A stretch of 64,000 nucleotides of DNA from the NCBI RefSeq assembly GCF_039634785.1, contig NZ_JBBIAB010000008.1, forward strand, positions 1 to 64,000. The letters are read 5' to 3'. The position numbers and the translations under genes were made by a program. The notes under the pieces are model-generated. The model worked only from the letters and a program-made list of their open reading frames with translations. It was not told the origin of the DNA and made no database searches. This document shows positions 21,489-37,784 of this stretch, piece by piece. Every line of letters starts with the position of its first letter. Position 1 is the stretch's first letter. The stretch comes from Tistrella mobilis. Lineage in GTDB: Bacteria; Pseudomonadota; Alphaproteobacteria; Tistrellales; Tistrellaceae.

Positions 21489-22048
21489 CAGCTGGGATCC
21501 CCGCTGCCGGTCTTCAGAAGCTTCTGGTGGCTGCCTTCGGGCGTGCCTTCGCCGTGCCAGGTGCCGGCACGCTTCATGGCGTCGACCACCTCGGGCGGCA
21601 TATAGGTCTCGTCATGCTTGGCCAGAACCTGTTCGGCGGTTACGGTGCCGTCGGGTTCCAAGCGGCCTTCGGCGACGATGCCCTGGCCTTCGCGGAACAG
21701 ATCGGGCAGCAGGCCGTCGTAATGGATGACCAGGGTCTTGGCACCGTCCGAGACGGTGAAGGCGACATTGGTGCCGGGGCCGCGGATCACGCTGCCGGCC
21801 TCGACCAGGCCGCCGACCCGAAGCCGGGTGCCGGGTTCTACCTGCTTCGCCTGAATGTCGCTCGGGCTGTAGAAGAACAGCAGATTGTCGCGGAAGGCGC
21901 CCAGAACCAGGGCGACCGCCACGGCGACCAGCAGCAGGATGCCGCCCAGCGCATACATCCGGCGACGCTTGCGGTTGAAGCGCCGGGGGGCAGGCGTGCG
22001 GGCGGCGGTGCCGCGTCCGGCGGCGGAAGCTTCAGGCGCGGGCGGCAT
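21488..22048 (-). CDS. ccmE: Periplasmic haem chaperone CcmE
   Basis: A 186-residue protein that binds haem covalently through a histidine and hands it to CcmF. The haem-binding site is KHDETYMPPEV, with H145 and Y149 in the HxxxY pattern. A membrane anchor lies at about 31-50, and the OB-fold core contains RLRVGGLVEAGSVIRG. The first 30 residues are an extra Pro/Ala/Arg-rich cytoplasmic extension. Its start overlaps the end of ccmD by 17 bp. Confidence 0.95.
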   Translation of the reverse strand: MPPAPEASAAGRGTAARTPAPRRFNRKRRRMYALGGILLLVAVAVALVLGAFRDNLLFFYSPSDIQAKQVEPGTRLRVGGLVEAGSVIRGPGTNVAFTVSDGAKTLVIHYDGLLPDLFREGQGIVAEGRLEPDGTVTAEQVLAKHDETYMPPEVVDAMKRAGTWHGEGTPEGSHQKLLKTGSGDPS

Positions 22049-22295
22049 CGTCGGTGGCTCCGTCGGTGCGGGCGGCGGTGCCCGGTGCGGAAGGGGCAGG
22101 GCGGCGGCGGCGTGCGCGCCGGTCCAGCCCCAGCGCCTCTAGCCGGGCCAGGCGGGCCTCGGCGCGGCGCAGCGCCACGCGGGCCTGCAGCCACACCCCC
22201 GCCAGCACCACAAGGGCGAAGCCGAAGGAGGGCCACACATAGGCGGCATAGCCGCCCATCGCCAGGAAGGTTTCGAGGTCGTTCACCGCCGTCAT
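22032..22295 (-). CDS. ccmD: Haem exporter protein CcmD
   Basis: A small membrane protein that helps release haem-loaded CcmE from CcmABC. The GGYAAYVWPSFGFALVVLAGVW stretch at about 14-35 is the CcmD signature helix. At 87 residues it is longer than usual; the added C-terminal part is Arg/Ala-rich and overlaps ccmE. The ATG at 22295 is very close to the GAGG element, so the GTG nine bases downstream could be the true start. Confidence 0.85.
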   Translation of the reverse strand: MTAVNDLETFLAMGGYAAYVWPSFGFALVVLAGVWLQARVALRRAEARLARLEALGLDRRARRRRPAPSAPGTAARTDGATDDAARA

Positions 22296-22482
22296 GTCCT
22301 CAACAATGATCGTCGTCCGGCGGGCCCGGCGCGATCTTGCGCAACAGATAGTGTCAGGCCGGGGCCCGCGTCCAGTGCTGCGGCAGGCTTGCGCCGCTAT
22401 GTCGCGGAAGTTGCGTGACAAAAATCCGCGGGGGTCGGGTCGGTTCCGGTCTTTGGCCTGTTCCGGTTATCTACTGTTCCCG

Positions 22483-23211
22483 TCACTCGGCGCGGCCGAG
22501 CGCCGCCTGCATCTCCAGGCTGCGCGCCCGGCGTTCCAGAAGTTCCGTCCGCGCGCGCAGGCAGACGATCGCCACGAAGATCAGCGTGAAGCCCAGCGCC
22601 ATCGCCAGCAGCGGCCAGAGCATGGACGGGTGGATCGAGGGCGCATCGAGCTTCGAGATCGTCGCCGGCTGGTGCAGCGTGTTCCACCAGTCGACCGAGA
22701 ACTTGATGATCGGCAGGTTGACCACACCCACCACCGCCAGGATGGCCGCCGCCTTGGCACCGCGTTCGGGCGCATCGAAGGCGTCGCGCAGCACCATATA
22801 GCCCAGATACAGGAAGAACAGCAGCAGCACCGAGGTCAGCCGCGCATCCCAGACCCACCAGGTACCCCACATCGGCTGGCCCCAGAGCGCGCCGGTGACC
22901 AGCGCGATGGCGGTGAAGGCGGCCCCCGCCGGCGCGATCGCCTTGGCGGTGACGTCGGCCACGCCGTGGCGCCAGATCAGGTAGACCGCGCTCGACACCG
23001 CGAGGCCGGCATAGGAGAACATCGCCATCCACGCCGCCGGCACATGGACATACATGATCCGGAAGCTTTCGCCCTGCTGATAATCGGGCGGCGCCACGAA
23101 CAGGCCGAGATAGAGCCCGACCAGGATCAGGGCCAGCCCCGCCAGCGCCGCCGGGCGGCGGACGCGGTCGACGATGCGGCCATAGAGGGTGGGATTGGCG
23201 TAGCGATGCAT
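22483..23211 (-). CDS. ccmC: Haem exporter / CcmE haem-loading protein CcmC
   Basis: A 242-residue membrane protein with six helices that loads haem onto CcmE. The WWD domain WGTWWVWDARLTSVL spans 115-129, and the haem-ligand histidines are in YVHVPAAW (H56) and NTLHQP (H180). The ATG at 23211 gives the typical MHRYANPTLY start; the open frame upstream is not homologous. ccmD follows after a 187-bp gap that shows no gene or clear signal, the only sizeable gap within the downstream ccm genes. Confidence 0.95.
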   Translation of the reverse strand: MHRYANPTLYGRIVDRVRRPAALAGLALILVGLYLGLFVAPPDYQQGESFRIMYVHVPAAWMAMFSYAGLAVSSAVYLIWRHGVADVTAKAIAPAGAAFTAIALVTGALWGQPMWGTWWVWDARLTSVLLLFFLYLGYMVLRDAFDAPERGAKAAAILAVVGVVNLPIIKFSVDWWNTLHQPATISKLDAPSIHPSMLWPLLAMALGFTLIFVAIVCLRARTELLERRARSLEMQAALGRAE

Positions 23212-23373
23212 CGCGGACGGGACCCCGCCGGCTGAAGGAAGAGATGGAACACGGGTTCCGGAACCCGCACCCGCGAGGAGGTGCACGCCTGGCGGCCGGG
23301 CGTCAAGCCTTGCCGGGCCTGCGCGACCATCGGACGCGGTCCGGAACGCCCAAGTGTCGCGCGCAGGCCCCGA

Positions 23374-24048
23374 TCAGTCCAGCCCCGCGCGCAACCCGGC
23401 AGCCGCGGCCAGCGGTGCCAGCGCGAGGGCGAGCACCGAGCCTGCGGCAAGCAGCATCAGATGCGGCCCCATGGGCAGGCCGTTCGCCGCCGCTTCGACG
23501 GCGCCGACCCCGAAGATCAGCACCGGAACATAGAGCGGCAGCAGCAGCAGCGGCATCAGCGCCGCCCCGCGCCGGGCGCCCAGGGTGAGGGCGGCGCCGA
23601 TCGCGCCGATCAGCGACAGCGCCGGCGTGCCGAGGGCGAGCGAGGCCATCAGGGCGGGGATGAGCCGCAGCTCCGCCTGCAGCATGATCGCGACCAGCGG
23701 TGCCATCAGGATCAGCGGCAGGCCCGTGGTCAGCCAGTGGGCCGCGGTCTTGGCCAGCACCACGACCGCGAGCGGCGCGGGGGAGAGGGCCAGACCTTCG
23801 AGCGCCCCGTCATTGCGGTCGGCATCGAACAGCCGGTCGAGCGAGAGCAGCACGGCGAGCAGCGCCGATGCCCAGACCACGCCCGAGGCGATCCGCGCCA
23901 GCACCTGCGGGCCGGGGCCCACACCCAGCGGGAAGAGGGTGGCCGCCACCACGAAGAAGGCGAGCACGGCCACGACATCGCCGGACCGGCCGGCGGTGCG
24001 AGCCAGATCGCGGATCAGGATGGCGCTGAAGGTGCCGGCCAGGCTCAT
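23374..24048 (-). CDS. ccmB: Haem exporter permease CcmB
   Basis: A 224-residue membrane protein with six hydrophobic segments, the permease partner of CcmA. It contains the family patterns FFVVAATLFPLGVGP and LSLDRLFDADRNDGALEGL (about 66-84), and PLYVPVLIFGVGAVEAA near 171-187. It overlaps ccmA by 4 bp (ATGA), and ccmC follows after 162 bp. With CcmA it powers release of holo-CcmE rather than free haem export. Confidence 0.95.
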   Translation of the reverse strand: MSLAGTFSAILIRDLARTAGRSGDVVAVLAFFVVAATLFPLGVGPGPQVLARIASGVVWASALLAVLLSLDRLFDADRNDGALEGLALSPAPLAVVVLAKTAAHWLTTGLPLILMAPLVAIMLQAELRLIPALMASLALGTPALSLIGAIGAALTLGARRGAALMPLLLLPLYVPVLIFGVGAVEAAANGLPMGPHLMLLAAGSVLALALAPLAAAAGLRAGLD

Positions 24049-24707
24049 GGCGCCGCCTCCTCGATGTCGAGCGGCACGGCCCGGTCGTCCAGGCCGAGGG
24101 CCAGATGGGTTGCGGTGACGACCATGCCGCCCTGGTCGAGATGATCGCCGATCAGCCGGGCGACCAGGGACTGACCGTCGCGGTCGAGTGCTGTGGTGGG
24201 TTCGTCCAGCACCCAGAGCGGACGCCGGGCGAGCAGCAGGCGGGCGAGGGCCAGGCGCCGGCGCTGGCCGGCCGAAAGTACCCGCACCGGCAGCTCGGCC
24301 AGATGCGGGATGTCGAGAGCCTCCAGCGCTTCGGCCACCCGTGCCGCCCGCAGCGGCCGCGGCACGCCCAGGATCGCTGCCCAGTGCCTGAGATCGGCGC
24401 CGGCTGCGAGTTCGGCGGCGATGCCATCGCGATGGCCCAGATAGTGGAGCCGTTCCCGCCAGGGGATGTCGTGATCCTCGCGATCGACGCCGTTCCAGAG
24501 CACCTGCCCCGCATCGGCGCGCACGAAGCCCGCCAGGATGCGCAACAGCGTCGATTTGCCGGCGCCGTTGCGGCCGGTGACGACCAGCGCATGGCCGGCC
24601 TCCAGCTCCGCATCCAGGCCGATGAAGATCGGCCGGTCGCCGCGGAAGCATGCCAGCTCTTGCAGCGTCAGCCGGTCTGGGGTCTCATCCAGCGGGTCCG
24701 TGGTCAC
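24045..24707 (-). CDS. ccmA: Haem exporter ATP-binding protein CcmA
   Basis: A 220-residue ABC ATPase with Walker A GRNGAGKST at 45-53, signature LSAGQRRR at 144-151 and Walker B LWVLDEP at 164-170. The LSAGQ form and GLRGHRDG-like YLGHRDGIAAELA segment are typical of CcmA. The GTG at 24707 was chosen because GAGGAT lies about 5 bp upstream and the preceding 63 residues of the open frame are not homologous. It is the first gene of the ccm cluster and is divergent from the LysE-type exporter gene across 154 bp. Confidence 0.95.
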   Translation of the reverse strand: MTTDPLDETPDRLTLQELACFRGDRPIFIGLDAELEAGHALVVTGRNGAGKSTLLRILAGFVRADAGQVLWNGVDREDHDIPWRERLHYLGHRDGIAAELAAGADLRHWAAILGVPRPLRAARVAEALEALDIPHLAELPVRVLSAGQRRRLALARLLLARRPLWVLDEPTTALDRDGQSLVARLIGDHLDQGGMVVTATHLALGLDDRAVPLDIEEAAP

Positions 24708-24861
24708 GCGATCCTCATGAAACGGCCTCGGTCGACGGCTTCCGGGCTTGCCTTCGGGGCGCCACAATGCATAGACCAAAGGGCGCTTTGCGAAAAGGCC
24801 GGGATCCGATCCAGATGGCAAAGACGACAGGAGGACAGATGGCGGAGCGGACGATCGGCGC

Positions 24862-25509
24862 ATGATCCTGTCCAGCTTCCTCGCGGGCATCGGCATCGGT
24901 CTGGTGGTCGCGGCCCCGGTGGGGCCGGCGGCGGTGATGGTGATCGGGCGCAGCCTGGACCGCGGCTGGCGGGTGGGCTTCGTGACCGGCCTGGGCGTCG
25001 TGCTGGCCGATCTGGTCTATGCCGGCATCGCCGTGGCGGGGCTCGGCTGGATCGAGCAGATCTATGCCTTCGAGCGGCCCTTGCAGCTGTTTGCGGGCCT
25101 GCTGCTGCTGATCATGGGGCTGGTGACCGCGACCGGCGCGCTCAGCCGCGACGGCGGCCAGATCACCGCCTTGCCCAACCCGACCTATCACGGTCGCAAC
25201 CGGGTGATGGCCGCCTGTTCCGGCTGCATCGCCACTTTCGCGCTCACCATCGTCAACCCGACGGCGGTTGCGGCCTTCCTTGCCCTGTTCGCGACCCTCG
25301 GCCGCTTCGCCGAAGACAAGATCCCGCTTCTGGGCGGCATTGCGGCGGGTGGTGCGCTGTGGTGGGCGGGTCTTGCCTGGGGCGCGGCCCATGCCGGCCG
25401 CAAACTCGCGCCGCGCTGGCCGATGCGCATCAAGCGCGGCGCCGGTGCCGTGCTGGCGGCGATCGGCGCCGGCGTGCTGGTCTATACCGGGATCGACTAC
25501 TGGTCCTGA
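24862..25509 (+). CDS. LysE-family translocator
   Basis: A 215-residue inner-membrane exporter with six hydrophobic helices. The family start is clear: FLAGIGIGLVVAAPVGPAAVMVIGRSL (residues 6-32), with the conserved PVGP turn, and later ATFALTIVNPTAVAAFLALF. LysE/RhtB proteins export amino acids or related small molecules; this one's substrate cannot be told. The ATG at 24862 lacks a close ribosome site. It is a single gene divergent from ccmA and is followed by a GntR gene on the other strand. Confidence 0.9.
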   Translation: MILSSFLAGIGIGLVVAAPVGPAAVMVIGRSLDRGWRVGFVTGLGVVLADLVYAGIAVAGLGWIEQIYAFERPLQLFAGLLLLIMGLVTATGALSRDGGQITALPNPTYHGRNRVMAACSGCIATFALTIVNPTAVAAFLALFATLGRFAEDKIPLLGGIAAGGALWWAGLAWGAAHAGRKLAPRWPMRIKRGAGAVLAAIGAGVLVYTGIDYWS

Positions 25510-25536: not shown

Positions 25537-26256
25537 TCAGAAATAGTCGGGATGGCGCTCCATGATCCGGGCGACGGCGCTGAGCGTGCCCGAAAGATGG
25601 CCGCGTACCGCCTCTTCCACGCCGGCCGTATCGCCCGCATCGATCCGGTCCAGAATGCGGCCGTGATAGTCCAGAATGCCCTGGGCCTTGCCCGGATCGA
25701 CCAGGTTCAGTGCGCGAAGCCGGTCGATATGGCCGGACCGTTCGGCGATCATGTACCAGAGATCGGGATGGCCGACGGCGTCGTAGAGCGCCAGATGGAA
25801 ATGCCGGTCCAGGATGGAGAACCGCTCGATATCCCCATCGGCGAAGGCCTGGCCCTGCAGATGCAGCAGGCGACGGGCATAGGCCGTCAAGTCCGCCGGT
25901 GTCTGGTGGCGGGCGATGGTCTTGGCGACCTCGATCTCGATCGCGAGCCGCAGGAACTGGGTCTCGCGGGCATGGGCGATATCGATCTTGGCAACCACCG
26001 TGCGCGACTGGGGGAAGATCTCGACCAGCTTCTCCCGTTCCAGCCTCAGGAAGGCGTCCCGCACCGGCGTCTGGCTGACGGCATATTCCTCGGCAAGCTG
26101 GGTGCGCGACAGCAGGGCCCCCGGCTTCAGCTCCAGGTCGATGATCCGGCGCCTGAGTGCGGCATAGATGCCCTGCGATGCCAGCGGCCGCCGGTCCAGA
26201 TCGGCCAGCGTGGCGATGTCGGTGAAGTCGGGCAGGACGGATCGCCTGGGGGACAT
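25537..26256 (-). CDS. GntR-family regulator, FadR/FCD type
   Basis: A 239-residue repressor. The winged HTH is in residues 28-82 (RTQLAEEYAVSQTPVRDAFLRLEREKLVEI), and the helical FCD ligand domain follows, with the metal-binding DRHFHLALYDAVGH pattern. The ATG at 26256 has a GGGAG about 10 bp upstream; the in-frame ATG at 26295 has none. The gene is divergent from the TRAP operon, and a 14-bp perfect palindrome lies between them, so it most likely controls uptake and breakdown of the sugar acid handled by that operon. Confidence 0.93.
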   Translation of the reverse strand: MSPRRSVLPDFTDIATLADLDRRPLASQGIYAALRRRIIDLELKPGALLSRTQLAEEYAVSQTPVRDAFLRLEREKLVEIFPQSRTVVAKIDIAHARETQFLRLAIEIEVAKTIARHQTPADLTAYARRLLHLQGQAFADGDIERFSILDRHFHLALYDAVGHPDLWYMIAERSGHIDRLRALNLVDPGKAQGILDYHGRILDRIDAGDTAGVEEAVRGHLSGTLSAVARIMERHPDYF

Positions 26257-26316
26257 GGGCGGCGGGCTCCCTGAAGCACTCTCTTCCCGGACCATATCAG
26301 ATGTTGCGTCAGGGCA

Positions 26317-26380: not shown

Positions 26381-27403
26381 ATGCGCCCGACGATCACGGC
26401 CCTCGCGGGCCTGGTGGCCTGCGCCTTCGCGGCACCGGCCACGGCCGCGACCTACACCATCCAGACGTCGTTCAATGCCGGCGACTTCTCGACCCAGTAC
26501 CTTACCGAGCACTGGCTGCCCAGGATCGCCGAGATGACCGGCGGCCGGGTGGAAATCGCCCTCACGCCCAACGGGTCGGTGGTGCCGGCCAAGGAGACGC
26601 CCCATGCCGTCGGGCTGGGCGTGATCGACGGCGACTGGACCTCGGTCAACTATTTTTCGGGGCTGGAGCCCGCCTTCGCCATCCTGGGCGATCTGATCTC
26701 GGGCTACGACACGCCGCAGCAGATGGCCGGTTTCTGCGAAAACGGCCCTGGCGAGGCGGTCTGGCAGAAGGCGCTGGACGAGGTGTCCGACGGCGAGGCG
26801 CATCTGGTCGGCTGCGCGCCTTACAGCCGCGAGGCCCTGCCGGCGCGGGTGCCGATCCAGACCTTCGACGATCTGAAGGGCAAGAAGATCCGGGCGCCCG
26901 AGGGGCTGGCCTCCGCCGTGTTCCAGGCGGCCGGCGCAAGCCCGGTCTCCATCCCGTTCTCGGAAGTCTATGGTGCGCTTGAAAAGGGCATCGTCGATGC
27001 CGCCGACGCCTCGGCCTATGTCAACAATGCCAGCACCGGGCTGAACGACGTCGCGCGCTATCCACTCTATCCCGGCATCCATTCGATGCCGTCGATGCAG
27101 CTCTCGTTCAATCGCGAGAAATGGGAAGACCTTTCCGAGGCCGACCGGAAGGCGCTGCGGGACTGGTTCTACATGGCGATGGCCGATCTGACCCGGGTGG
27201 TCGCCGAACAGGATGCGGCGCTGGCCGCGAAGGATGCCGCCGCCGGTAAGGTCGAGGTCATCGACTGGGCCCAGGCCGACCGCGACAGGCTGCGCGACGT
27301 CGCCCGCATCGAATGGGAGAAGTTCGCCGCCAAGGGTCCGCTCGCCAAGGAGGCCCTGGACGCCAACCTGGCCTATATGAAGCAGATCGGCCTGCTGAAG
27401 TGA
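26381..27403 (+). CDS. TRAP transporter substrate-binding protein (DctP type)
   Basis: A 340-residue periplasmic binding protein with a 22-residue signal peptide ending ATA before ATYTIQTSFNAGDF. The middle has the DctP family pattern DDLKGKKIRAPEGLASAVFQAAGASPVSIPFSEVYGALEKGIVDAAD, with the arginine and downstream residues that hold the ligand carboxylate. It should bind a sugar acid or another carboxylate, judged from its operon. The ATG at 26381 follows GGGAGG. It is the first gene of the TRAP unit. Confidence 0.94.
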   Translation: MRPTITALAGLVACAFAAPATAATYTIQTSFNAGDFSTQYLTEHWLPRIAEMTGGRVEIALTPNGSVVPAKETPHAVGLGVIDGDWTSVNYFSGLEPAFAILGDLISGYDTPQQMAGFCENGPGEAVWQKALDEVSDGEAHLVGCAPYSREALPARVPIQTFDDLKGKKIRAPEGLASAVFQAAGASPVSIPFSEVYGALEKGIVDAADASAYVNNASTGLNDVARYPLYPGIHSMPSMQLSFNREKWEDLSEADRKALRDWFYMAMADLTRVVAEQDAALAAKDAAAGKVEVIDWAQADRDRLRDVARIEWEKFAAKGPLAKEALDANLAYMKQIGLLK

Positions 27404-27477: not shown

Positions 27478-27999
27478 ATGAGACGGTTCTTCGCCTGCTG
27501 CGCCGCGGCCATGGACCGGGTGAGCGTCTTCACCGGCCAGGCCTGTGCGTCGCTGTTCTTCGCCTGCATCGCCCTCTCGGCCCTGGAGGTGGTGATGCGC
27601 TACGGCTTCGATCACCCCACAAGCTGGTCAATCGAGGTGACCATGGCGCTCTGCGCCACGGCCTGGGTGCTGTCGGTCGGCTATGTCACCGAGCGCAACC
27701 GCCACATCTCGATCACCATGCTCGAAATCCTGGTCGGCCCGAAGCTCTGGCACCGTTTCCGCCTGATCCAGATCCTGGTGTCGATCGGCGCCGTAACCGG
27801 CCTGATCCTGGCGATCTGGAGCCCGGCCATGCGGGTGATCGCGCGGCCGGAATATTCCGGCACGGCGCTCAATTCCATCCAGCCCAGCTACCTCAAGGTC
27901 GTGCTGCTGGCGGGGTGCGTGCTCTATGTCGCGCAGCTCTTCGCCAACCTGATCCGCTGGTTCCAGGGGACCGAGAAGGAAGACGGCGGTGGGCATTGA
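27478..27999 (+). CDS. TRAP transporter small permease (DctQ type)
   Basis: A 173-residue inner-membrane protein with four hydrophobic helices. It carries the DctQ pattern LEVVMRYGFDHPTSWSIEVTMALCATAWVLSVGYV followed by RNRHISI. The start at 27478 has GGGAGG 5 bp upstream. It overlaps the large permease gene by 11 bp, so the two membrane subunits are made together. Confidence 0.93.
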   Translation: MRRFFACCAAAMDRVSVFTGQACASLFFACIALSALEVVMRYGFDHPTSWSIEVTMALCATAWVLSVGYVTERNRHISITMLEILVGPKLWHRFRLIQILVSIGAVTGLILAIWSPAMRVIARPEYSGTALNSIQPSYLKVVLLAGCVLYVAQLFANLIRWFQGTEKEDGGGH

Positions 28000-29305
28000 G
28001 ATCATCACCATCCTGATCGTCCTGGGCCTGCTGGCCCTGATGGCGATCGGCATTCCGCTCGGCGTCACCACGCTTACGGTGTCGCTGGTGACGGCGGTGC
28101 TCTATTTCGGTGAACGCGCCGGCTTCTTCATCGTTTCGGCCAATGTCACCGAGGTCCTGCACAAATACGAACTGATCGCGGTGCCGTTCTTCGTGTTCAT
28201 GGCCAATGTGCTGGAACGATCGGGGATCGCGCATACGCTGTTCGAAAGCATGGCGATCCTGGGCGGGCGTTTCCGCGGCTCGGTCGCCGTGCAGACCACG
28301 GTGGTGGCCGTTGTCCTGGCCGCGATGAGCGGCATCATGGGCGGCGAAATCGTGATGCTGGGGCTGATCGCCCTGCCGCAGATGCTGCGTCTCGGCTATG
28401 ACCGCAAGATGTCGATCGGCATCATCTGTGCGGCCGGTGCGCTGGCGACGCTGATCCCGCCCTCGGTGGTGCTGATCGTCTACGGCCTGGCCGCCCAGGT
28501 CTCGATCACGAAGCTGTTTGCGGCCTCGGCCGTGCCTGGGCTGCTGCTCGCCTCGCTGTTCATCGCCTATGTGCTGGTGCGGGTGCGGCTCAACCCGTCG
28601 CTGGCGCCGATCTACGACATCCCCGAAACCGGCCTGCCCTTCGTGCAGCGCCTGCGCTTTCTGAACGGTGCCATCCTGCCGGCCGTGCTGATCATGGCGG
28701 TTCTGGGGGTGATCTACAGCGGCGTCGCCACGGTGACCGAGGCGGCGGCGATCGGTGCGGTCGGATCGCTCGTGGTCGCCGCGGTGCGGGGTGAGCTGTC
28801 CTGGACCATGGCCCGCGACGCCATGCGGCGCACGGCACTGACGGTCGGTTCGATCATCTGGCTGGTGCTGGGGGCGGTGTCGCTGATCGGCATCTATAAC
28901 CGGATCGGCGGCGGCGACTTCCTGCGCGGCATGCTCACCTCGCTCGACATCGCGCCGATCTGGGTGATCGTGGTGATGATGGCGATCGTGATGGTGCTGG
29001 GCACCTTCCTTGAATGGATCGCCATCCTGTTCATCACCGTGCCGATCTTCGCCCCCGTGGTTCAGGATCTGGGCTACGACCCGGTCTGGTTCGGCGTGCT
29101 GTTCGCGATGAACATCCAGATCTACTACCTGTCGCCGCCCTTCGGTCCGGCCTGTTTCTTTCTGAAATCGGTGGCCCCCAAGGATGTCGAACTGCAGGAG
29201 ATCTTCGCCGCGGTGATGCCGTTCATCGCCCTGCAGGCGGTAGGCCTGCTGCTGGTGCTGGCCTTCCCCGACATCGCCCTCTGGCTGCCCTCGCTGGTGG
29301 AATGA
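27989..29305 (+). CDS. TRAP transporter large permease (DctM type)
   Basis: A 438-residue sodium-coupled permease with about 12 helices. Typical DctM features are FFVFMANVLERSGIAHTLFESM, the GGEIVMLGLIALPQMLRLGYDRKMSIG region and CAAGALATLIPPSVVLIVYGLAAQVSITKLFAAS. The C-terminal half has YYLSPPFGPACFFLKSVAP. The GTG at 27989 lies inside the end of the small-permease gene. A 54-codon gene begins 10 bp after its stop. Confidence 0.95.
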   Translation: MGIEIITILIVLGLLALMAIGIPLGVTTLTVSLVTAVLYFGERAGFFIVSANVTEVLHKYELIAVPFFVFMANVLERSGIAHTLFESMAILGGRFRGSVAVQTTVVAVVLAAMSGIMGGEIVMLGLIALPQMLRLGYDRKMSIGIICAAGALATLIPPSVVLIVYGLAAQVSITKLFAASAVPGLLLASLFIAYVLVRVRLNPSLAPIYDIPETGLPFVQRLRFLNGAILPAVLIMAVLGVIYSGVATVTEAAAIGAVGSLVVAAVRGELSWTMARDAMRRTALTVGSIIWLVLGAVSLIGIYNRIGGGDFLRGMLTSLDIAPIWVIVVMMAIVMVLGTFLEWIAILFITVPIFAPVVQDLGYDPVWFGVLFAMNIQIYYLSPPFGPACFFLKSVAPKDVELQEIFAAVMPFIALQAVGLLLVLAFPDIALWLPSLVE

Positions 29306-29315
29306 GGAGGCATCG

Positions 29316-29480
29316 ATGCGACCCGACGACCCGATCCAGGATCAGGACGAGGCGGTGACCGCCGCCGATTTCGCCGCGGCCGAGGCGGCCGACGGCTTCG
29401 ATTTCGGCAACTGGCCGGAAATTGCCGGCGGCCTTGCCGCCGCTGCCCTCACCTGGCTGATTTTCGCCTTTACCGGATGA
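29316..29480 (+). CDS. Small single-helix membrane protein of the TRAP operon (54 aa)
   Basis: I do not recognise a family. The frame has a strong GAGGAGG ribosome site at 29304-29310, five bases before the ATG. Its stop overlaps the ATG of the dehydratase gene as ATGA, so it is plainly part of the operon. The first 31 residues are acidic (many Asp, Glu and Ala). Residues 34-53 form one hydrophobic helix ending FAFTG. It could be an accessory subunit of the TRAP permease, or a small regulator. The translation signals make it a convincing gene; its function is unknown. Confidence 0.75.
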   Translation: MRPDDPIQDQDEAVTAADFAAAEAADGFDFGNWPEIAGGLAAAALTWLIFAFTG

Positions 29481-31216
29481 CCCCCATGACCAGGACCTAT
29501 GACGAGCTGCGCTCGGCGCGCTGGTTCGCGCCCGACAATTTCCGCGGCTTCGGGCACCGCTCCCGAACCCTGCAGATGGGCTATGACGAGCAGGACTGGG
29601 CAGGCAAGCCGGTGGTGGCGATCCTGAACACCTGGTCCGACATCAATCCCTGCCATCAGCATTTCAGGCAGCGCGTCGACGACGTGAAGCGCGGCGTGTT
29701 CCAGGCCGGCGGCTTTCCGATCGAGCTGCCGGCCCTGTCGGTCAGCGAGAATTACGTCAAGCCGACGACGATGCTCTATCGCAACATGCTGGCGATGGAG
29801 ACCGAGGAGCTGATCCGCTCCCACCCGGTCGACGGCGTGGTGCTGATGGGCGGCTGCGACAAGACCACCCCCGGCCTGGTGATGGGCGCGATCTCGGCCG
29901 GCTTGCCCGCGATCTATCTGCCGGCCGGGCCGATGCTGCGCGGCAATTGGGAAGGGCGCACCCTGGGCTCCGGCTCGGATGCGTTCAAGTACTGGGACGA
30001 ACGCCGCGCCGGCACCATCACCGAGGCGCAGTGGAAGGGCATGGAGCGGGGCATCGCGCGCTCTTACGGCCATTGCATGACCATGGGCACGGCGTCGACC
30101 ATGACGGCGATCGCCGAGGCGCTTGGGTTGACGCTGCCGGGGGCCTCGTCCATTCCGGCCGCCGATTCCAACCACATCCGCATGTCGGCCGACTGCGGGC
30201 GGCGGATCGTGGGCATGATCTGGGAGGATCTGACCCCGGCCAGGATCCTGACGGCGGCGGCCTTCGACAATGCGGTGACCGTCGCCATGGCCACCGGCTG
30301 CTCGACCAATGCGGTGGTGCATCTGATCGCCATGGCCCGGCGGGCCGGGGTCGATCTCACCCTCGACGACCTGGATGCCAAAAGCCGGGTGACCCCGGTG
30401 ATCGCCAATATCCGCCCGGCCGGATCCACCTATCTGATGGAGGATTTCTTCTATGCGGGCGGCCTGCGGGCGCTGATGGCGCGGCTGGGCGACAGGTTGC
30501 ATCGCGACTGTCTGACCGTGACCGGGCGCACGCTGGGCGAGGGGATCGAAGGTGCCGAGGTCTGGAACGACGACGTCATCCGCACGGTCGACAACCCGAT
30601 CTACAACGAGGGGTCGCTCGCGGTGCTGAAGGGCAACCTCGCCCCCGACGGTGCGGTGATCAAGCCGGTGGCCTGCGATCCCAAATTCCTGGTCCATGAA
30701 GGGCCGGCCATGGTCTTCGACAGCTATCCCGAGCTGAAGGAAAAGCTGGACGACGAGGATTGGGACATCACCCCCGATGCCGTTCTGGTGCTGCGCAATG
30801 CCGGCCCCAAGGGCGGACCGGGCATGCCCGAATGGGGCATGATCCCGATGCCCAGGGCGCTGCTGAAACAGGGCTGCCGCGACATGGTCCGGCTGTCGGA
30901 TGCCCGGATGTCGGGCACCTCGTTCGGTGCCTGCGTGCTGCATGTGGCGCCGGAATCCTATGTCGGCGGCCCGCTCGCCCTGTTGCGGACCGGCGACATC
31001 GTGCGCCTCGACGTGCCCGGCCGCCGGCTGGACATGCTGGTCGATTACGACGAGATCGCCCGGCGCCGGGCGGCCTGGACCCCGCCGCCGCCGCGCTTCC
31101 ACCGGGGCTGGGGCTGGATGTTCACCAACCACATCCAGCAGGCCGATAAGGGCTGCGATTTCGACTATCTGGAGACGTCCTTCGGGGCGCCCGTCGACGA
31201 ACCCGTGATCTATTGA
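29477..31216 (+). CDS. IlvD/Edd-family pentonate dehydratase, probably L-arabinonate dehydratase
   Basis: Removes water from a sugar acid to give a 2-keto-3-deoxy acid, in the cytoplasm. The 579-residue protein belongs to the [2Fe-2S] branch of the family. Cluster cysteines C59 (NPCHQH), C127 (GGCDKTTPG) and C200 (YGHC) fall at positions I recall for the Rhizobium L-arabinonate dehydratase. K129, carbamylated in that enzyme, is conserved, and the catalytic serine is in the MSGTSFG loop near residue 479. D-xylonate or other pentonates are alternative substrates. It is translationally coupled to the small gene upstream and followed by an RraA-like gene. Confidence 0.9.
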   Translation: MTPMTRTYDELRSARWFAPDNFRGFGHRSRTLQMGYDEQDWAGKPVVAILNTWSDINPCHQHFRQRVDDVKRGVFQAGGFPIELPALSVSENYVKPTTMLYRNMLAMETEELIRSHPVDGVVLMGGCDKTTPGLVMGAISAGLPAIYLPAGPMLRGNWEGRTLGSGSDAFKYWDERRAGTITEAQWKGMERGIARSYGHCMTMGTASTMTAIAEALGLTLPGASSIPAADSNHIRMSADCGRRIVGMIWEDLTPARILTAAAFDNAVTVAMATGCSTNAVVHLIAMARRAGVDLTLDDLDAKSRVTPVIANIRPAGSTYLMEDFFYAGGLRALMARLGDRLHRDCLTVTGRTLGEGIEGAEVWNDDVIRTVDNPIYNEGSLAVLKGNLAPDGAVIKPVACDPKFLVHEGPAMVFDSYPELKEKLDDEDWDITPDAVLVLRNAGPKGGPGMPEWGMIPMPRALLKQGCRDMVRLSDARMSGTSFGACVLHVAPESYVGGPLALLRTGDIVRLDVPGRRLDMLVDYDEIARRRAAWTPPPPRFHRGWGWMFTNHIQQADKGCDFDYLETSFGAPVDEPVIY

Positions 31217-31230
31217 AGGCAGGCCGCCAG

Positions 31231-31956
31231 ATGACCGGACATCCGCTGAAGGACGAGACGCGCGTAAAGCTTGCCCGCGTTTCGACCGCCTCGCTCGCGA
31301 CCGCGCTGTTCAAGCGTGGCCTGCGCAATCAGTTCATCCAGGGCGCCGTGCCAGTGGCCTGGAAGGGGCGGAGCATGGTCGGCCCGGCCTTCACGCTCCG
31401 CTACATCCCGGCGCGGGAGGATCGCAACCCGATCACGGTCTTCCGCGATCCGGAGCACAGGCAGCGCGTGGCGGTGGAAACCTGCCCGCCGGGCCATGTG
31501 CTGGTGATCGATGCCCGCAAGGATGCCCGTGCCGCCTCGGCCGGCTCGATCCTGGTCACCCGGCTGGAAATGCGCGGCTGCGCCGGCATCGTCACCGATG
31601 GCGGCTTCCGCGATGCCGAGGGGATCGGCCGGCTGGACATGCCGGCCTATCACGCCCGCCCCTCGGCCCCCACCAATCTTACTTTGCACGAGGCGATCGA
31701 GATCAACGGGCCGATTGCCTGCGGCGATGTCGCGGTCTTCCCCGACGACGTGCTGGTCGGCGATGCCGACGGCGTGATGGTGATCCCGGCCCATCTTGCC
31801 GACGAGCTGGCGGCGGAATGCACCGCCATGGAGAGCTATGAGGATTTCGTGCTGGAGCGGGTGAAAGCGGGAGACACGATCATCGGCCTCTACCCTGCGA
31901 CGAAGCAGGAGAACCTCGACGCTTATGAAGACTGGCGGCGCGACACCGGGGAATGA
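31231..31956 (+). CDS. RraA-like protein, probable HMG/CHA-type aldolase
   Basis: A 241-residue member of the RraA/4-hydroxy-4-methyl-2-oxoglutarate aldolase family. The metal- and substrate-binding residues of the aldolases are present: DGGFRD at 123-128 with the Arg-Asp pair, and later GDADGVMVIP. This favours a class II aldolase acting on the keto acid from the neighbouring dehydratase over an RNase E inhibitor, although automated annotation often says the latter. The ATG at 31231 was preferred to the TTG at 31213, which overlaps the dehydratase stop. It is the last gene of the sugar-acid operon. Confidence 0.85.
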   Translation: MTGHPLKDETRVKLARVSTASLATALFKRGLRNQFIQGAVPVAWKGRSMVGPAFTLRYIPAREDRNPITVFRDPEHRQRVAVETCPPGHVLVIDARKDARAASAGSILVTRLEMRGCAGIVTDGGFRDAEGIGRLDMPAYHARPSAPTNLTLHEAIEINGPIACGDVAVFPDDVLVGDADGVMVIPAHLADELAAECTAMESYEDFVLERVKAGDTIIGLYPATKQENLDAYEDWRRDTGE

Positions 31957-32064: not shown

Positions 32065-33306
32065 TCAATCATAGACCCGGGCGTCCTCGATAACCTTGCC
32101 GTCGCCGGGCAGGGCGCCCGGGGTCACCAGTTCCACCTCGGCCCGGAGATTGGCTGCGGTGCGGAAGGCGTCGGCCAGCCGGCCGGCAAGACCATCGGCA
32201 CCGGCTTCCGGCACTTCACAGCGCAGGACCGCCGTGTCCCGGCCCTCGGGGTTGGTGACCACCAGCCGGGCGCGCGAGATGCCGCCCACGGCCTTCAGCG
32301 CCTGGGCGACCTGCCCCGGATGGACGAACATGCCGCGGATCTTGGTGGTCTGATCAGCCCGGCCCAGCCAGCCGCGCAGGCGCATGCCGGTGCGTCCGCA
32401 GGGGCTGGTGCCGGCCATGAAGGCCGACAGGTCGCCCGTTGCGAAGCGGATCAGCGGATAGGTGCTGCTGAAGGTGGTGACGACCACCTCGCCGATCTCG
32501 CCCTCGGGCACCGGATCCCCCGTGCCGGGGCGGACGATCTCCACAATCAGATCCTCGTCCAGGATCATGCCTTCAGAGGTCGGGCCCTCATAGGCAATCT
32601 GGCCCAGATCCGCCGTGCCGTAAACCTGGCCCACGGTGACGCCGCGCCGCCCCAGTTCCTGACGCAGGGTCTGGGTCAGGGCTTCACCGGTCACGAGCGC
32701 CTTGGTGATGGTCACGGCCTGCCCGGCCTCTTCCTGCCGCTCCAGCAGCAGCTTCAGGAAGGAGGGCATGCCGGTGAAGGCGGTGGGCTTCAACTGGGCG
32801 ATGGCCGCCAGCTGCTGTTCGGTATTGCCGCCACCGGCCGGGATCACCGCGCAGCCGACGGCACGGGCACCGGTGTCGAACATCCAGCCGCCGGGGGTGA
32901 AGTGGTAGGCGAGGGTGTTGTGCACCACGTCGCCGGGGCGGAAACCCGCCGCCCAGCAGGCGCGGGCGAAGCGGAACGGATCAGGCCCCGCGCCCTGCGG
33001 GTCGTAGATCGGCCCCGGAGACATGAACAGATGGGCAAGCTCGCCCGGTGCCTGGGCATTGAGCCCGCCGAACGGGGGCTCTGCCGCCTGACGGGTGGTC
33101 AGTTCGGATTTGCGCAGCACGGGCAGCGTGGCGAGGGCGGCGCGATCCCGAATCGCCGGGGCGTCCACCGCGGCCAGCAGCCGGGCCATGGCCGGAGCCT
33201 TGGCCTTGGCGAGGGCGATCTGCGCCGGCAGCCGTGCGAACAGTCCCGCCTCCCGCCGCTCGGGATCCATGGTCTCACGGTCGTCGTAATGGATGCTGTC
33301 GGTCAT
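32065..33306 (-). CDS. Phenylacetate-CoA ligase-like adenylate-forming enzyme
   Basis: A 413-residue protein of the PaaK branch of adenylate-forming ligases. It has PVLRKSELTTRQ at about residues 62-73, the YGTADLGQIAYEG motif, which is the adenylate-binding YGxTE-like region, and RFATGDLSAF plus a LRGWLGRADQTTKIRGMFVHPGQV segment typical of PaaK C-terminal domains. It should activate an aryl or alkyl carboxylate to its CoA thioester with ATP. It is the last gene of the second Liv-type transporter operon, 68 bp after the ATPase gene, so its substrate is probably what that transporter imports. Confidence 0.88.
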   Translation of the reverse strand: MTDSIHYDDRETMDPERREAGLFARLPAQIALAKAKAPAMARLLAAVDAPAIRDRAALATLPVLRKSELTTRQAAEPPFGGLNAQAPGELAHLFMSPGPIYDPQGAGPDPFRFARACWAAGFRPGDVVHNTLAYHFTPGGWMFDTGARAVGCAVIPAGGGNTEQQLAAIAQLKPTAFTGMPSFLKLLLERQEEAGQAVTITKALVTGEALTQTLRQELGRRGVTVGQVYGTADLGQIAYEGPTSEGMILDEDLIVEIVRPGTGDPVPEGEIGEVVVTTFSSTYPLIRFATGDLSAFMAGTSPCGRTGMRLRGWLGRADQTTKIRGMFVHPGQVAQALKAVGGISRARLVVTNPEGRDTAVLRCEVPEAGADGLAGRLADAFRTAANLRAEVELVTPGALPGDGKVIEDARVYD

Positions 33307-33374
33307 CGTCCTGTACCGGATGCGGGGGCGGCGGGCGCCCGTCGGTGTCTGGTTGCGGGAGAAGTGGCCGGAGA

Positions 33375-34232
33375 TCAGAGCCAGCGCTTGCGGCGCTTGA
33401 ACGACTTGATCGACTTGAACGACTTGCGCTCACCGCCACCGGTGCCGAGGTAAAATTCCTTCACGTCCTCGTTGCCCATCAGGTCATCACGGCTGCCGTC
33501 GAGCACGATCTTGCCGTTTTCCATGATGTAGCCGTAAGAAGCGTGCTTCAGGGCCTGACGGGCATTCTGCTCGACCAGCAGAATGGTCATGCCCTGTTCT
33601 TCGTTGATCTGCTTGATGATCGAGAAGACCTCTTTCACCAGCAGCGGTGACAGGCCCATCGACGGCTCGTCCATCAGGATCAGTTTGGGGCGCGCCATCA
33701 TGGCGCGACCGATCGCCAGCATCTGCTGCTCACCGCCCGAGAGATAGCCTGACAGCCCGGTGCGTTCCTTGAGGCGCGGGAAGTAGTGATAGACCATCTC
33801 GATATCGGCCTTCACCCCGCTGTCACGACGGGTATAGGCACCCAGGCGCAGGTTCTCGGCGACGGTCATATCCTCGACCACGCGCCGGCCTTCCATCACC
33901 TGGAACAGGCCGCGCTTCACGATTTCCTGGGGTTCGAGCCCGCTGATCTTCTCGCCCATGAACGTGACGTCGCCGCGGGTGATCTCGCCATCCTCGCTCT
34001 TGAGCAGGCCCGAGATGGCCTTGAGGGTGGTCGACTTGCCGGCGCCGTTGGCCCCCAGCAGGGTCACGATCTGACCCTGGGGCACGTTCAGGCTCACGCC
34101 ATGCAGCACCAGGATCACGTCGTTGTAGACGACCTCGATGTTGTTGACGGTCAGGATCGGCTCGGCTTCCGCTGCTGGGCGGGCGCCGGTGCCGGGCCGG
34201 GGGCCGGATGTGGCGGTCTGGGTCATCGACAT
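33375..34232 (-). CDS. Liv-type ABC transporter ATP-binding protein (LivF type) of the second system
   Basis: A 285-residue ATPase, longer than usual because of a Pro/Ala-rich 25-residue N-terminal extension and a basic C-terminal tail full of Lys and Arg. Walker [10 protein letters not shown] is at 60-68, signature LSGGEQQ at 164-170 and Walker B LILMDEP at 184-190. The LLVEQNARQALKHASYGYIMENG segment marks it as LivF. The tail of repeated FKS-type residues could bind membrane or nucleic acid; it has no known function. Confidence 0.93.
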   Translation of the reverse strand: MSMTQTATSGPRPGTGARPAAEAEPILTVNNIEVVYNDVILVLHGVSLNVPQGQIVTLLGANGAGKSTTLKAISGLLKSEDGEITRGDVTFMGEKISGLEPQEIVKRGLFQVMEGRRVVEDMTVAENLRLGAYTRRDSGVKADIEMVYHYFPRLKERTGLSGYLSGGEQQMLAIGRAMMARPKLILMDEPSMGLSPLLVKEVFSIIKQINEEQGMTILLVEQNARQALKHASYGYIMENGKIVLDGSRDDLMGNEDVKEFYLGTGGGERKSFKSIKSFKRRKRWL

Positions 34233-34320
34233 GCGAGGTCTCGTGCAGGAAAGAGTGGTCGGGTCGGGAAGAGGGGAGGCCCCGTCCGCCGCCGTGACGC
34301 GGCAGACGGGGCCCGTCGGA

Positions 34321-35553
34321 TCACCAGCCCAGCCACTCGGGGCGGCGGTCGATCCGGGTTTCGGCCAGGCGGTTCATGGCGAACTTCCCGTCCTTCACCT
34401 CACCCTGATAGACATACATGTCGATCGTCCCGCGATGGTCCTCGGGCGTCCAGGTGGAGGGGAAGCACACGCCTTCCAGGCCGGCCGGCACCCAGTCGGT
34501 CTTCTGGTACATGCCCTGCTTGATGTTCGGCCCGGTGACGCCGCCATTCTTGTCGGCCCACTCCATGGCTTCCTTCATGTAGAAGGCCGTGCAGACGCCG
34601 CGGACATAGTGGACCGGGCGATAGCCGTCGCCACCGGCGATCTCGTGCACCAGCTTCATGCCCGGGGCATCGTCCTGCCAGGTGGCGGAACCGACCACCC
34701 AGACCACGCCGTCGGCGGCGGAACCGGCGGCCTCGGCGGCGCTCTCGTCGAAGCCCCAGATGTTGGCCATGAACTGCGCTTCGACGCCGACGGTCTCGCA
34801 GCTCTTCAGCAGCGAAATGTTGGAACCGGCCGTGTTGCCCAGGTAGGCGTAGTTGGCACCGGATTCCTTCAGCGTCAGGCACTGCGCCTTGAAGTCGGCG
34901 GGGGCGAGCGAGTACTGGATCGCCGGCAGGACGTCGAAGCCCAGCTCCTTGGCGTATTCCTCACCGGCCTTGCGGGCGGCATTCGGGTAGGGGTGGTTGT
35001 CGCCCATATGGACGTATTTGGGCTTACCTTCCTTGCCCTGCTTCTTCCAGTCCTCGGCGGCCCACTGCAGCATGCCGCGCAGCGCATCCGAATAAGACAC
35101 GTTGTAGAAGAAGTTGTAGGGAGCCGGCGCCTTGACCACGCCCGACTTGCCGGTCGGATCGGTCAGATGGGCGGAATAGGAGCCCGAGTAGTAAGGCATC
35201 TCGTCCTTGGCCAGGAAGCCGACCAGGGCTTCGGTGTCGGCGGTGCCCCAGCCTGCGATCGCCACGGCGCCGAACTCCGACACCCAGCGCTTATAGGCGG
35301 CAATGGCGCGCGGTGCCTGATAGGAATAGTCGACGGTATCGGCGTTGATCTGCTTGCCGTTGATGCCGCCATGGGCATTGATCCAGTTGAAGGCGTCGAT
35401 CTTGCCTTCCGAGAACGGCTTGCTGACCGTCGAGGTCGCACCGGTGTAGTCGACCAGGTTGCCGATCTTGATGTCGTCGGCCGCGATCGCCGCTGAGGCG
35501 GTGCCGGCGACCAGGATGGCGGCGAACGCGCCGGTCAGAGTCTTCCTGGACAT
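34321..35553 (-). CDS. Liv-type substrate-binding protein of the second system
   Basis: A 410-residue periplasmic protein with a clear signal peptide (MSRKTLTGAFAAILVAGTAS, cleavage after AIAA near 25). The mature start DDIKIGNLVDYTGATSTVSKPFSEGKIDAFNWINAHGG is typical of type 1 Liv/aromatic-acid binding proteins. The ATG at 35553 follows AGGGAGAG. It lies 157 bp downstream of livM and 88 bp upstream of livF. The ligand is unknown; the two ligase genes in the operon point to a carboxylic acid rather than an amino acid. Confidence 0.93.
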   Translation of the reverse strand: MSRKTLTGAFAAILVAGTASAAIAADDIKIGNLVDYTGATSTVSKPFSEGKIDAFNWINAHGGINGKQINADTVDYSYQAPRAIAAYKRWVSEFGAVAIAGWGTADTEALVGFLAKDEMPYYSGSYSAHLTDPTGKSGVVKAPAPYNFFYNVSYSDALRGMLQWAAEDWKKQGKEGKPKYVHMGDNHPYPNAARKAGEEYAKELGFDVLPAIQYSLAPADFKAQCLTLKESGANYAYLGNTAGSNISLLKSCETVGVEAQFMANIWGFDESAAEAAGSAADGVVWVVGSATWQDDAPGMKLVHEIAGGDGYRPVHYVRGVCTAFYMKEAMEWADKNGGVTGPNIKQGMYQKTDWVPAGLEGVCFPSTWTPEDHRGTIDMYVYQGEVKDGKFAMNRLAETRIDRRPEWLGW

Positions 35554-35710
35554 GTGTCTCTCCCTGAAGAAGCGGAATGCTTCGTTCTTGTCTTCGATCG
35601 CAACCGTTGTCGGCTGCGGATGGGGCGGGCGGGGTGCATACGCGCGAAGCGCGAGATCCGGGCCCGCCGGGGCCGGGTTCCGTCGCGGCGGGGGCCGCGA
35701 CGGCAACGGA

Positions 35711-36781
35711 TCAGTACGAGAACGGATAGAGTTTCCAGTAGGCCTTGATCTGCCGCCACCGATGGGCGAGCCCGTCGGGTTCGAAGATCAGGAACAGGAC
35801 GATGACCAGGCCGATCGCAGCCTCTTTGAGGAAGGCGACATTGGTCATGAACGAGGCGCCGATCAGTCCGGCCCCGTTCATGGCCGAGACGACGCCTTCC
35901 AGAACCTCGGGCAGCAGCACCATGAAAGCCGTCCCCATCAGCGTGCCCATCACCGAGCCGAGGCCGCCGATGATGATCATGCCCAGGAACTGGATCGACA
36001 GCAGGATGGTGAAGCTTTCGACCGAGACGAAGCCCAGATAGTGGCCATAGAGCGCGCCTGCGATGCCGGCGTAGAACGAACTGACACCGAAGGACATCAG
36101 CCGGTATTTGGTGAGGTTGACGCCCATCACCTCGGCCGAGAGATAGTGATCGCGCACCGCCACGAAGGCCCGGCCGTCGCGGGAGCGCAGCATGTTGGTG
36201 GCCAGCAGGAAGCAGATCACCATGAAGACGAGCGCCACGTAGTAGAAGTTGTGCTCGCCATAGGCTTCCCAGCCGAACAGCGAGAACGACTGGGCGAGTG
36301 CGCCCGCCGAACCGCCGGTGAAGAAGTCCGCCCGCGAGAAGAAGTCCTGCAGGATGAACTGCGACGCCAGCGTCGCGATCGCGAGATAAAGACCTTTGAT
36401 CCGCGCTGCAGGGATGCCGACGATCAGGCCGACCGCCGTGGTCATGAGCCCGGCGAGCGGGATGGCGAGCACCACCGGCACGTCGTAGGTGTTGTTGAGG
36501 AAGGCGGACGAGAAGGCACCGAAGCCGAAGAAGGCGGCATGGCCCAGCGAGATCTGGCCGGTGAAGCCGACCAGGATGTTGAGGCCGAGGGCGGCGATGC
36601 CGTAGATCGCGATCGTGATCGCCAGATTCATGTGGTACTGGCTGGCGATCAGCGGGAAGAGGGCCGCAAGGATGAGGCCGAGGATGGCGAAATTCCGCGA
36701 CCATTTCGTCGGGAAGATCGTGGTGTCCTTGGCGTAAGAGGTCCGGTAGTCGCCGCAGGGGCGGAGGGACATGCTGCTCAT
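35711..36781 (-). CDS. Liv-type permease (LivM type) of the second system
   Basis: A 356-residue inner-membrane permease with about nine helices. It shows LNILVGFTGQISLGHAAFFGFGAFS, the LivM hallmark, and IKGLYLAIATLASQFILQDFF. The cytoplasmic loop VAVRDHYLSAEVMGVNLTKYRLMSFGVSSFYAG matches the family. The start at 36781 has GAGG about 8 bp upstream and lies 10 bp after the livH stop, so the permeases are co-translated. Confidence 0.93.
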   Translation of the reverse strand: MSSMSLRPCGDYRTSYAKDTTIFPTKWSRNFAILGLILAALFPLIASQYHMNLAITIAIYGIAALGLNILVGFTGQISLGHAAFFGFGAFSSAFLNNTYDVPVVLAIPLAGLMTTAVGLIVGIPAARIKGLYLAIATLASQFILQDFFSRADFFTGGSAGALAQSFSLFGWEAYGEHNFYYVALVFMVICFLLATNMLRSRDGRAFVAVRDHYLSAEVMGVNLTKYRLMSFGVSSFYAGIAGALYGHYLGFVSVESFTILLSIQFLGMIIIGGLGSVMGTLMGTAFMVLLPEVLEGVVSAMNGAGLIGASFMTNVAFLKEAAIGLVIVLFLIFEPDGLAHRWRQIKAYWKLYPFSY

Positions 36782-36791
36782 GGTTCCGGCC

Positions 36792-37685
36792 TCACACGCG
36801 CTCGATGTTCTTGGTGCCGAAGAGCCCGTAGGGCTTGATCATCAGGATGATGATCAGGACGTAGAAGGGGGCGACGGCATAGAGGTTGCCGATGTGCAGG
36901 AACTGCCCGTCGACATATTCCGCCATGTTCTCGAGCACGCCGATGATCAGGCCGCCGACCACCGCGCCGATGATGGAGTCCAGCCCGCCCAGGATCACCG
37001 CCGGGAACACCTTGAAGCCGAAGAGCGACAGGCCGGCCGAAACGCCGTTGACGATGCCCACCACCACGCCGGCCAGCGCCGAGACCACCGCCGAGATCGC
37101 CCAGGAGATGGCGAACATCTGCTTCACCGAGACGCCCAGCGACTGGGCGACCTGCTGGTTGAAGGCGGTCGCCCGCATGGCGAGACCGATCTTGGAGAAT
37201 TTGAAGAACCAGGCGAAGAGACCCATGGCGATCAGCGAGATCACAAGGCTCATCACATAGGCGGTCTGGACCTGGAGGCCCAGGATGGTGACCGAGCTGG
37301 TCTCGAAGATCGGCGGGAAGGGTTGCACGAACACGCCGAACATCCACTTCATCATCGCCTGGAAGAAGATCGAGAGCCCGATCGTCACCATGATCACCGA
37401 GATGATCGGTTCACCGATCAGCGGCCGCAGCACCACCACCTGAAGCAGGATGCCGAACACCACCATGAAGGCGAGGGTGAAGAGGAAGGACCAGAAGAAG
37501 GGCAGCTGCAGATCGGTCATGATCCACCAGCACACCCAGGCGCCGATCAGCAGGAATTCGCCCTGCGCGAAATTGACGATCTGGGAGGCCTTGTAGATCA
37601 GCACGAAACTCATCGCGACGACGCCGTAAAGCGTGCCGACGATCAGTCCATTGACCAGAAGTTGTACGAACAGTGAAGACGTCAT
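36792..37685 (-). CDS. Liv-type permease (LivH type) of the second system
   Basis: A 297-residue inner-membrane permease beginning MTSSLFVQLLVNGLIVGTLYG. It contains SQIVNFAQGEFLLIGAWVCW, the LivH pattern, and the conserved FPAVILGGLDSIIGAVVGGLIIGVLENM region near the C-terminus. The ATG at 37685 follows GAGGAG; the further upstream frame is not homologous. A 99-bp gap separates it from the acyl-CoA synthetase gene upstream. Confidence 0.93.
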   Translation of the reverse strand: MTSSLFVQLLVNGLIVGTLYGVVAMSFVLIYKASQIVNFAQGEFLLIGAWVCWWIMTDLQLPFFWSFLFTLAFMVVFGILLQVVVLRPLIGEPIISVIMVTIGLSIFFQAMMKWMFGVFVQPFPPIFETSSVTILGLQVQTAYVMSLVISLIAMGLFAWFFKFSKIGLAMRATAFNQQVAQSLGVSVKQMFAISWAISAVVSALAGVVVGIVNGVSAGLSLFGFKVFPAVILGGLDSIIGAVVGGLIIGVLENMAEYVDGQFLHIGNLYAVAPFYVLIIILMIKPYGLFGTKNIERV

Positions 37686-37784
37686 GGCGCGGAAAGCTCC
37701 TCGCTTGCGCAGGGCCGGCGATGCGGCCCCTCCGGGCGGAAACCTGGGGCCCAAGCGGGCCCGAAACCTGGCGGGGCGCGGCGG

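Follow-up and report, generated by a model that had tools for sequence, protein, structure and literature searches.

A conserved single-helix gene directly downstream of dctM in one clade of TRAP transporters, encoding a putative accessory subunit

The TRAP operon and its small gene

The window (the whole stretch analyzed, 64,000 nucleotides of Tistrella mobilis DNA) carries an operon in which the TRAP components DctP, DctQ and DctM are encoded together, each above the cut-off of its Pfam family. The solute-binding protein gene dctP (26381–27403, +; PF03480, E 5.2e-39) was followed by dctQ for the small permease subunit (27478–27999, +; PF04290, E 7.6e-17), which overlaps by 11 nt with dctM for the large permease subunit (27989–29305, +; 438 aa, GTG start; PF06808, E 4.8e-76). 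DctM also scored above the cut-off of NCBIfam TIGR00786, and the nearest named DctM was that of Tistrella mobilis KA081020-065 (100% identity). Behind dctM and the small gene described below, an IlvD/Edd-family dehydratase of the L-arabinonate dehydratase type (29477 or 29486 to 31216, +) matched the equivalog model NF009559 of NCBIfam with 1100.9 bits against a curated cut-off of 882, followed by an RraA-like aldolase-family protein (31231–31956, +; Pfam PF03737, with NF006093 above cut-off). A GntR/FCD regulator (25537–26295, −; Pfam PF00392 and PF07729) was encoded divergently upstream. On the minus strand, ORFs at 21488–24896 resemble what we take to be a cytochrome c maturation (heme export) cluster, and those at 32065–37754 presumably comprise a CoA-ligase and a branched-chain amino-acid ABC importer. 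The neighboring L-arabinonate-dehydratase-type gene suggests that the transporter carries an acid sugar. Halomonas TRAP systems have been assigned to arabinonate and galactonate on similar neighbor grounds, and the small gene is not linked to them in the accessible part of that report (PMC5507952).

The small gene (29316–29480, +) runs from an ATG to a TGA and encodes 54 aa. Its Shine-Dalgarno sequence GAGGAGG (29304–29310, +) overlaps the dctM stop codon (TGA, 29303–29305) and lies 5 nt upstream of the ATG, in agreement with the strong ribosome site given in the initial annotation. The product (10 D/E, 1 R) was divided, from sequence, conservation and AlphaFold, into an acidic tail (residues 1–29), an FGNWPE motif (30–35) and a predicted transmembrane helix (33–53). 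The small protein was folded alone with 80 relatives in AlphaFold, which gave a short helix at 16–26 and the long helix at 33–53, with mean pLDDT of 94 in block 31–40 and 97 in block 41–50; the product, acidic at its N-terminus as annotated, is predicted to be a short protein with one membrane helix. For the dehydratase, two candidate ATG starts (29477 and 29486) are in frame and 9 nt apart, and only 29477 gives the ATGA overlap with the small gene that had been described. The overlap is present at that start, but in relative UR115 there is no ATGA overlap and the dehydratase start matches position 29486, which appears at least as likely as 29477.

No match to Pfam or NCBIfam was obtained for the 54-residue product of the window at E ≤ 0.01. 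At the same threshold none of the 81 family members matched Pfam, and the one match to NCBIfam (1/81; a C-terminal anchor model, E 0.0098) was taken as chance. The family is absent from Pfam and has no credible place in NCBIfam, and a profile search of PDB chain sequences with it returned nothing up to E 1. The gene had been called unannotated, which was partly right for its relatives elsewhere, as these are entered as 'hypothetical protein' in two plasmid records.

Conservation and selection downstream of dctM

Genome contigs were scanned with DctM alone, and the best 80 of 135 relatives (66–100% DctM identity) were retained as named-genome loci. A homologous small frame was found directly after dctM in 80/80, the frames being chosen by a loose motif pattern that no locus failed. 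These loci span Alpha- and Gammaproteobacteria, with Tistrella, Jiella, Roseovarius, Salipiger, Mesorhizobium, Halomonas, Chromohalobacter, Grimontia and Enterovibrio among the carriers (Grimontia and Chromohalobacter being Gammaproteobacteria). The small frame started 1–113 nt past the dctM stop, at ≤30 nt in 77 of the 80 loci, and was in no case fused to DctM. In the Jiella loci L028, L029 and L037 the small gene begins 71–113 nt after dctM, not about 10 nt. Shine-Dalgarno scores of the 80 loci are not independent evidence, because the starts were partly picked by a match to AGGAGG. When 58 genomes were searched with the small protein it was found in three, each time after dctM: the Tistrella genome itself, a second genome from its genus (85%) and a genome from a different family (50%).

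Across 81 sequences, G31, P34 and G38 were invariant, and F30, W33 and E35 were at least 90% conserved. Pooled pN/pS was 0.178 (synonymous 0.361 per site, non-synonymous 0.064) over 27 chosen close pairs, some with a member in common; in one pair (L042/L060) the ratio was 1.11, with both rates at 0.03. The small gene is under purifying selection. Both a spurious ORF and a leader ORF with no protein role were ruled out by the ratio of 0.18 together with the conserved motif. Frame conservation and the substitution ratio were the check that the initial annotation had proposed for its claim of a real small gene; with the frame in place behind dctM at all 80 loci, a ratio that is not non-coding-like and one predicted helix, that claim is supported.

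The acidic tail differs in length and sequence among members, beside an FGxWPE turn that is nearly fixed. Such a pattern would fit a regulatory peptide that binds loosely or transiently and switches the transporter under some condition, as SgrT does, and small membrane proteins can act in this way according to the part of the literature consulted (PMC7267776). Against it, the small gene has its own ribosome site directly after dctM, so the amount of the small protein should track that of the transporter. Regulation of the transporter, which the initial annotation had also offered as a function, would be possible, but we consider a regulatory peptide improbable.

Distribution, genomic neighbors and history

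In its own genome (6.2 Mb) 45 DctM matches were found, and none of the 42 other DctM loci read carried the small gene, as judged by an FGxWP(E/D)-type motif within 600 nt (433 nt once) or by a small hydrophobic ORF starting between 30 nt before and 60 nt after the dctM stop. A partial DctM match of the same genome (L148), whose continuation reads N, stood outside this count. Two adjoining partial DctM matches on contig C5 (354087–355592) of this genome form one 543-codon frame. Across 48 loci ordered by DctM identity, taken from 289 genomes of the class (DctM E ≤ 1e-90, no more than six candidates scored in any genome), the small gene was present in 5/5 loci at ≥86% identity (three of the five from one genus), in 1/5 at 57–61% and in 0/38 below 57%. 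One ORF each at L166 and L198, flagged by the hydrophobic-ORF filter, was unlike the family.

A first, three-row profile returned 5 strong and 19 weak places (E 0.013–0.099) in 385 genomes, and one weak match that was followed up (G379) was genuine. Profile A2, built from the 81 small proteins, matched at E ≤ 0.01 in 8 of 397 phylum-wide genomes and 8 of 387 class genomes (the draws overlap); 12 of its 14 distinct places followed a DctM gene (57–100% DctM identity), and matches L153 and L154 were discarded as spurious. Divergent members read YGIWPW, FGLWPT or YGVSPT where FGNWPE was expected. Plasmids also carry the gene, in 3/3 examined from the best four of 147 records with a DctM match, the fourth record (CP131057.1) being L051. 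On the Marinovum plasmid pMaD8 the small gene lacks the motif and is annotated 'hypothetical protein' (MALG_04920); it scored 14.7 bits against a family profile built with MALG_04920 excluded, a score reached by 0 of 500 segment-wise shuffles. The proposal of an extra small gene in the DctPQM system was supported for one DctM clade only.

To place this clade, a tree of 85 DctM sequences was built by a quick method with SH-aLRT support (several branches are long), with 42 non-carriers and 43 carriers: the window, 33 of the 80 loci and 9 others, of which 7 had entered through a search with the small protein itself and 2 from the plasmid records. L167 was left out as the same gene as L155, and L208 was scored as a carrier with no motif present. 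The small-gene trait needed 3 changes on this tree, against a shuffled mean of 28.6 and with 0/500 shuffles as low, and all 43 carriers fell inside one clade of 46 (support 100). With its presence in 80/80 loci and these 3 changes, the gene is co-inherited with dctM; one gain and two losses would fit as a simple reading of the trait's history. Clade members L165, L166 and L168 had no same-strand copy directly downstream of dctM, so the small gene is not indispensable to every clade member. A wider look around these three loci found only an opposite-strand ORF, at L165. In one of the three clade members that lack the small gene, an opposite-strand ORF just after dctM (L211:5815–6009, minus strand, genome G287) has an in-frame ATG for an acidic one-helix protein of 44 residues. 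This ORF scored 12.1 bits against the family profile (0/500 shuffles as high) and may be an inverted copy of the small gene; having been picked by eye, it may also be a chance find.

The enzymes encoded next to the gene differ among loci. Blast searches with the operon proteins of the window found an IlvD gene in 51/80 loci, and at L048 and L075 the first IlvD residues were visible where the stretch ended. Both counts would agree with a small protein that tethers the dehydratase to the transporter, one of the functions suggested in the initial annotation. No IlvD gene was found downstream of the small gene in 27/80 loci (L078 and L080–L105); in 25 of the 26 loci L080–L105 the downstream sequence covered 1.4 kb or more. 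Pfam was run on one downstream ORF from each of ten of these 27 loci, and two were enolase-superfamily proteins, three were isocitrate/isopropylmalate-type dehydrogenases, one each was an SBD_N/NBD_C kinase, an ATP-grasp protein and an epimerase-family protein, and two had no match. With no dehydratase gene found in these 27 loci and other enzymes following in several of them, the small gene stays with dctPQM while the neighbors change, independently of the dehydratase. A dehydratase tether as the general function was rejected on this gene content, and we regard a tether as very improbable.

Nor does the gene depend on how DctQ and DctM are joined. It follows four fused QM frames (Acuticoccus, 695 aa; G107, 704 codons; G379, 696; G653, 730), in each of which Pfam identified both DctQ and DctM, so that it occurs with fused and with separate QM. 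The fusion helix that joins Q to M in HiSiaQM spans the membrane and contributes a short horizontal helix as well, as far as the part of the report consulted describes it (PMC10942642). The small protein might be read as a detached equivalent of that helix, each being one helix added to QM. It is encoded by a separate gene after M, not between Q and M in one chain, and because the four fused QM genes precede it, the small gene is not simply a detached fusion helix; as a simple substitute that reading is contradicted, and it has hardly any probability left.

Candidate role and comparison with known systems

The fold of the complex was predicted with AlphaFold from a read-through Q-M-small chain of locus L099. 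Alignment A4 of these proteins was a chosen subset: 2 full rows, 42 with Q only, 15 with M and the small protein, 11 with M only and 21 with the small protein only. For the chain, mean pLDDT was 70.5 (small helix about 53–65) and pTM 0.57. The QM part matched SiaQM (7qha_B; Z 33.3, rmsd 4.2, 420 aligned) and other TRAP structures (8thi_B, Z 27.8; 9pym_A, Z 27.8). The PDB matches listed for the folded chain extend at most to model residue 613, short of the small protein, whose first residue is 619. Over 78 loci (Neff 22; L076 and L096 were left out, having no full DctQ), mutual information was calculated for the small protein with Q and M. The top pair (0.362) lay below the maximum of 12 within-clade shuffles (0.389), and mean raw mutual information was 0.347 against 0.311 in shuffles (sd 0.011), a difference for which residual kinship would be explanation enough. 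No significantly conserved face was seen on the membrane helix (p 0.12).

As a guide to orientation in the membrane, charges were compared along 81 rows. K/R before the helix were more numerous in 46, equal in 31 and fewer in 4. Up to the WPE turn there was a mean of 9.8 acidic and 2.3 basic residues per protein, and the last six residues held a basic one in 22/81 and an acidic one in 3/81.

The small gene probably encodes a fourth subunit of the TRAP membrane complex, an accessory protein with a single helix that is specific to this clade. It is encoded right after DctM behind its own ribosome site, with a predicted single membrane helix that would pack against the DctQ-DctM membrane complex; the conserved FG(N/W)WPE turn would sit at the surface of the membrane, and the acidic tail would lie outside the bilayer. 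The protein would most likely either stabilize the elevator transporter's scaffold or modulate its activity, much as CydX and KdpF act on their enzymes and AcrZ acts on AcrB. The analogy with these three proteins (CydX, PMC4325964; AcrZ and KdpF, PMC7267776) leads us to infer that it binds QM and that the stability or activity of the complex is affected. An assembly or insertion factor, a one-helix chaperone for the insertion and folding of DctM or of Q with M that is not kept in the finished transporter, would fit the position after dctM and the inheritance with it equally well, and the AlphaFold placement of the small helix in the complex is of low confidence. The restriction to one clade, with 42 other DctM loci in the same genome, fits a subunit at least as well, and we judge an assembly factor unlikely, if somewhat less so than a regulatory peptide. 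A bolder form of the accessory-subunit reading, offered tentatively and with less confidence than the subunit itself, is that the whole TRAP clade is four-part: the helix would have been gained once, passed on since then with DctM and kept as a standing part of the scaffold, and the acidic tail beside the FGxWPE turn would gate docking of the binding protein or lock the scaffold.

TRAP transporters are usually described as tripartite, and to our knowledge the response of their membrane part to the binding protein is not settled. No report of a fourth, small or accessory TRAP membrane component was found in the open-access literature, among the matches listed. Because a conserved fourth gene is present in this clade, reconstitutions and structures of its members from P, Q and M only may lack a component. 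A gene of about 40–65 codons also offers a simple genetic handle by deletion.

For PpSiaQM-type transporters with separate Q and M, only P, Q and M subunits are described in the accessible text (PMC9971032). The operon of the window is like them in its DctP, DctQ and DctM families, and the folded QM part of L099 matches 7qha_B; the conserved one-helix gene after dctM is the difference. In HiSiaQM, too, Q and M are accompanied by an additional transmembrane helix (PMC10942642), whereas the helix of the window has a gene of its own downstream of M. The cluster of the ectoine TRAP system likewise includes a fourth gene, teaD, but its product, as presented in the available portion of the report (PMC9006882), binds ATP and belongs to the universal stress family, and is no one-helix membrane protein. 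The CydX protein of cytochrome bd oxidase, insofar as the sections consulted cover it (PMC4325964), is comparable in being very short, with few conserved residues, encoded in the operon of its partner, coupled to one allele class of that partner and sometimes unannotated; no Pfam match connects the two, the putative partner here is a transporter, and CydX is an established member of its complex, a status that is putative for the protein of the window. AcrZ of the AcrB pump, from what could be consulted of its description (PMC7267776), is also a small one-helix partner of a transporter, with known binding and N-out orientation, whereas the partnership is putative for the protein of the window.
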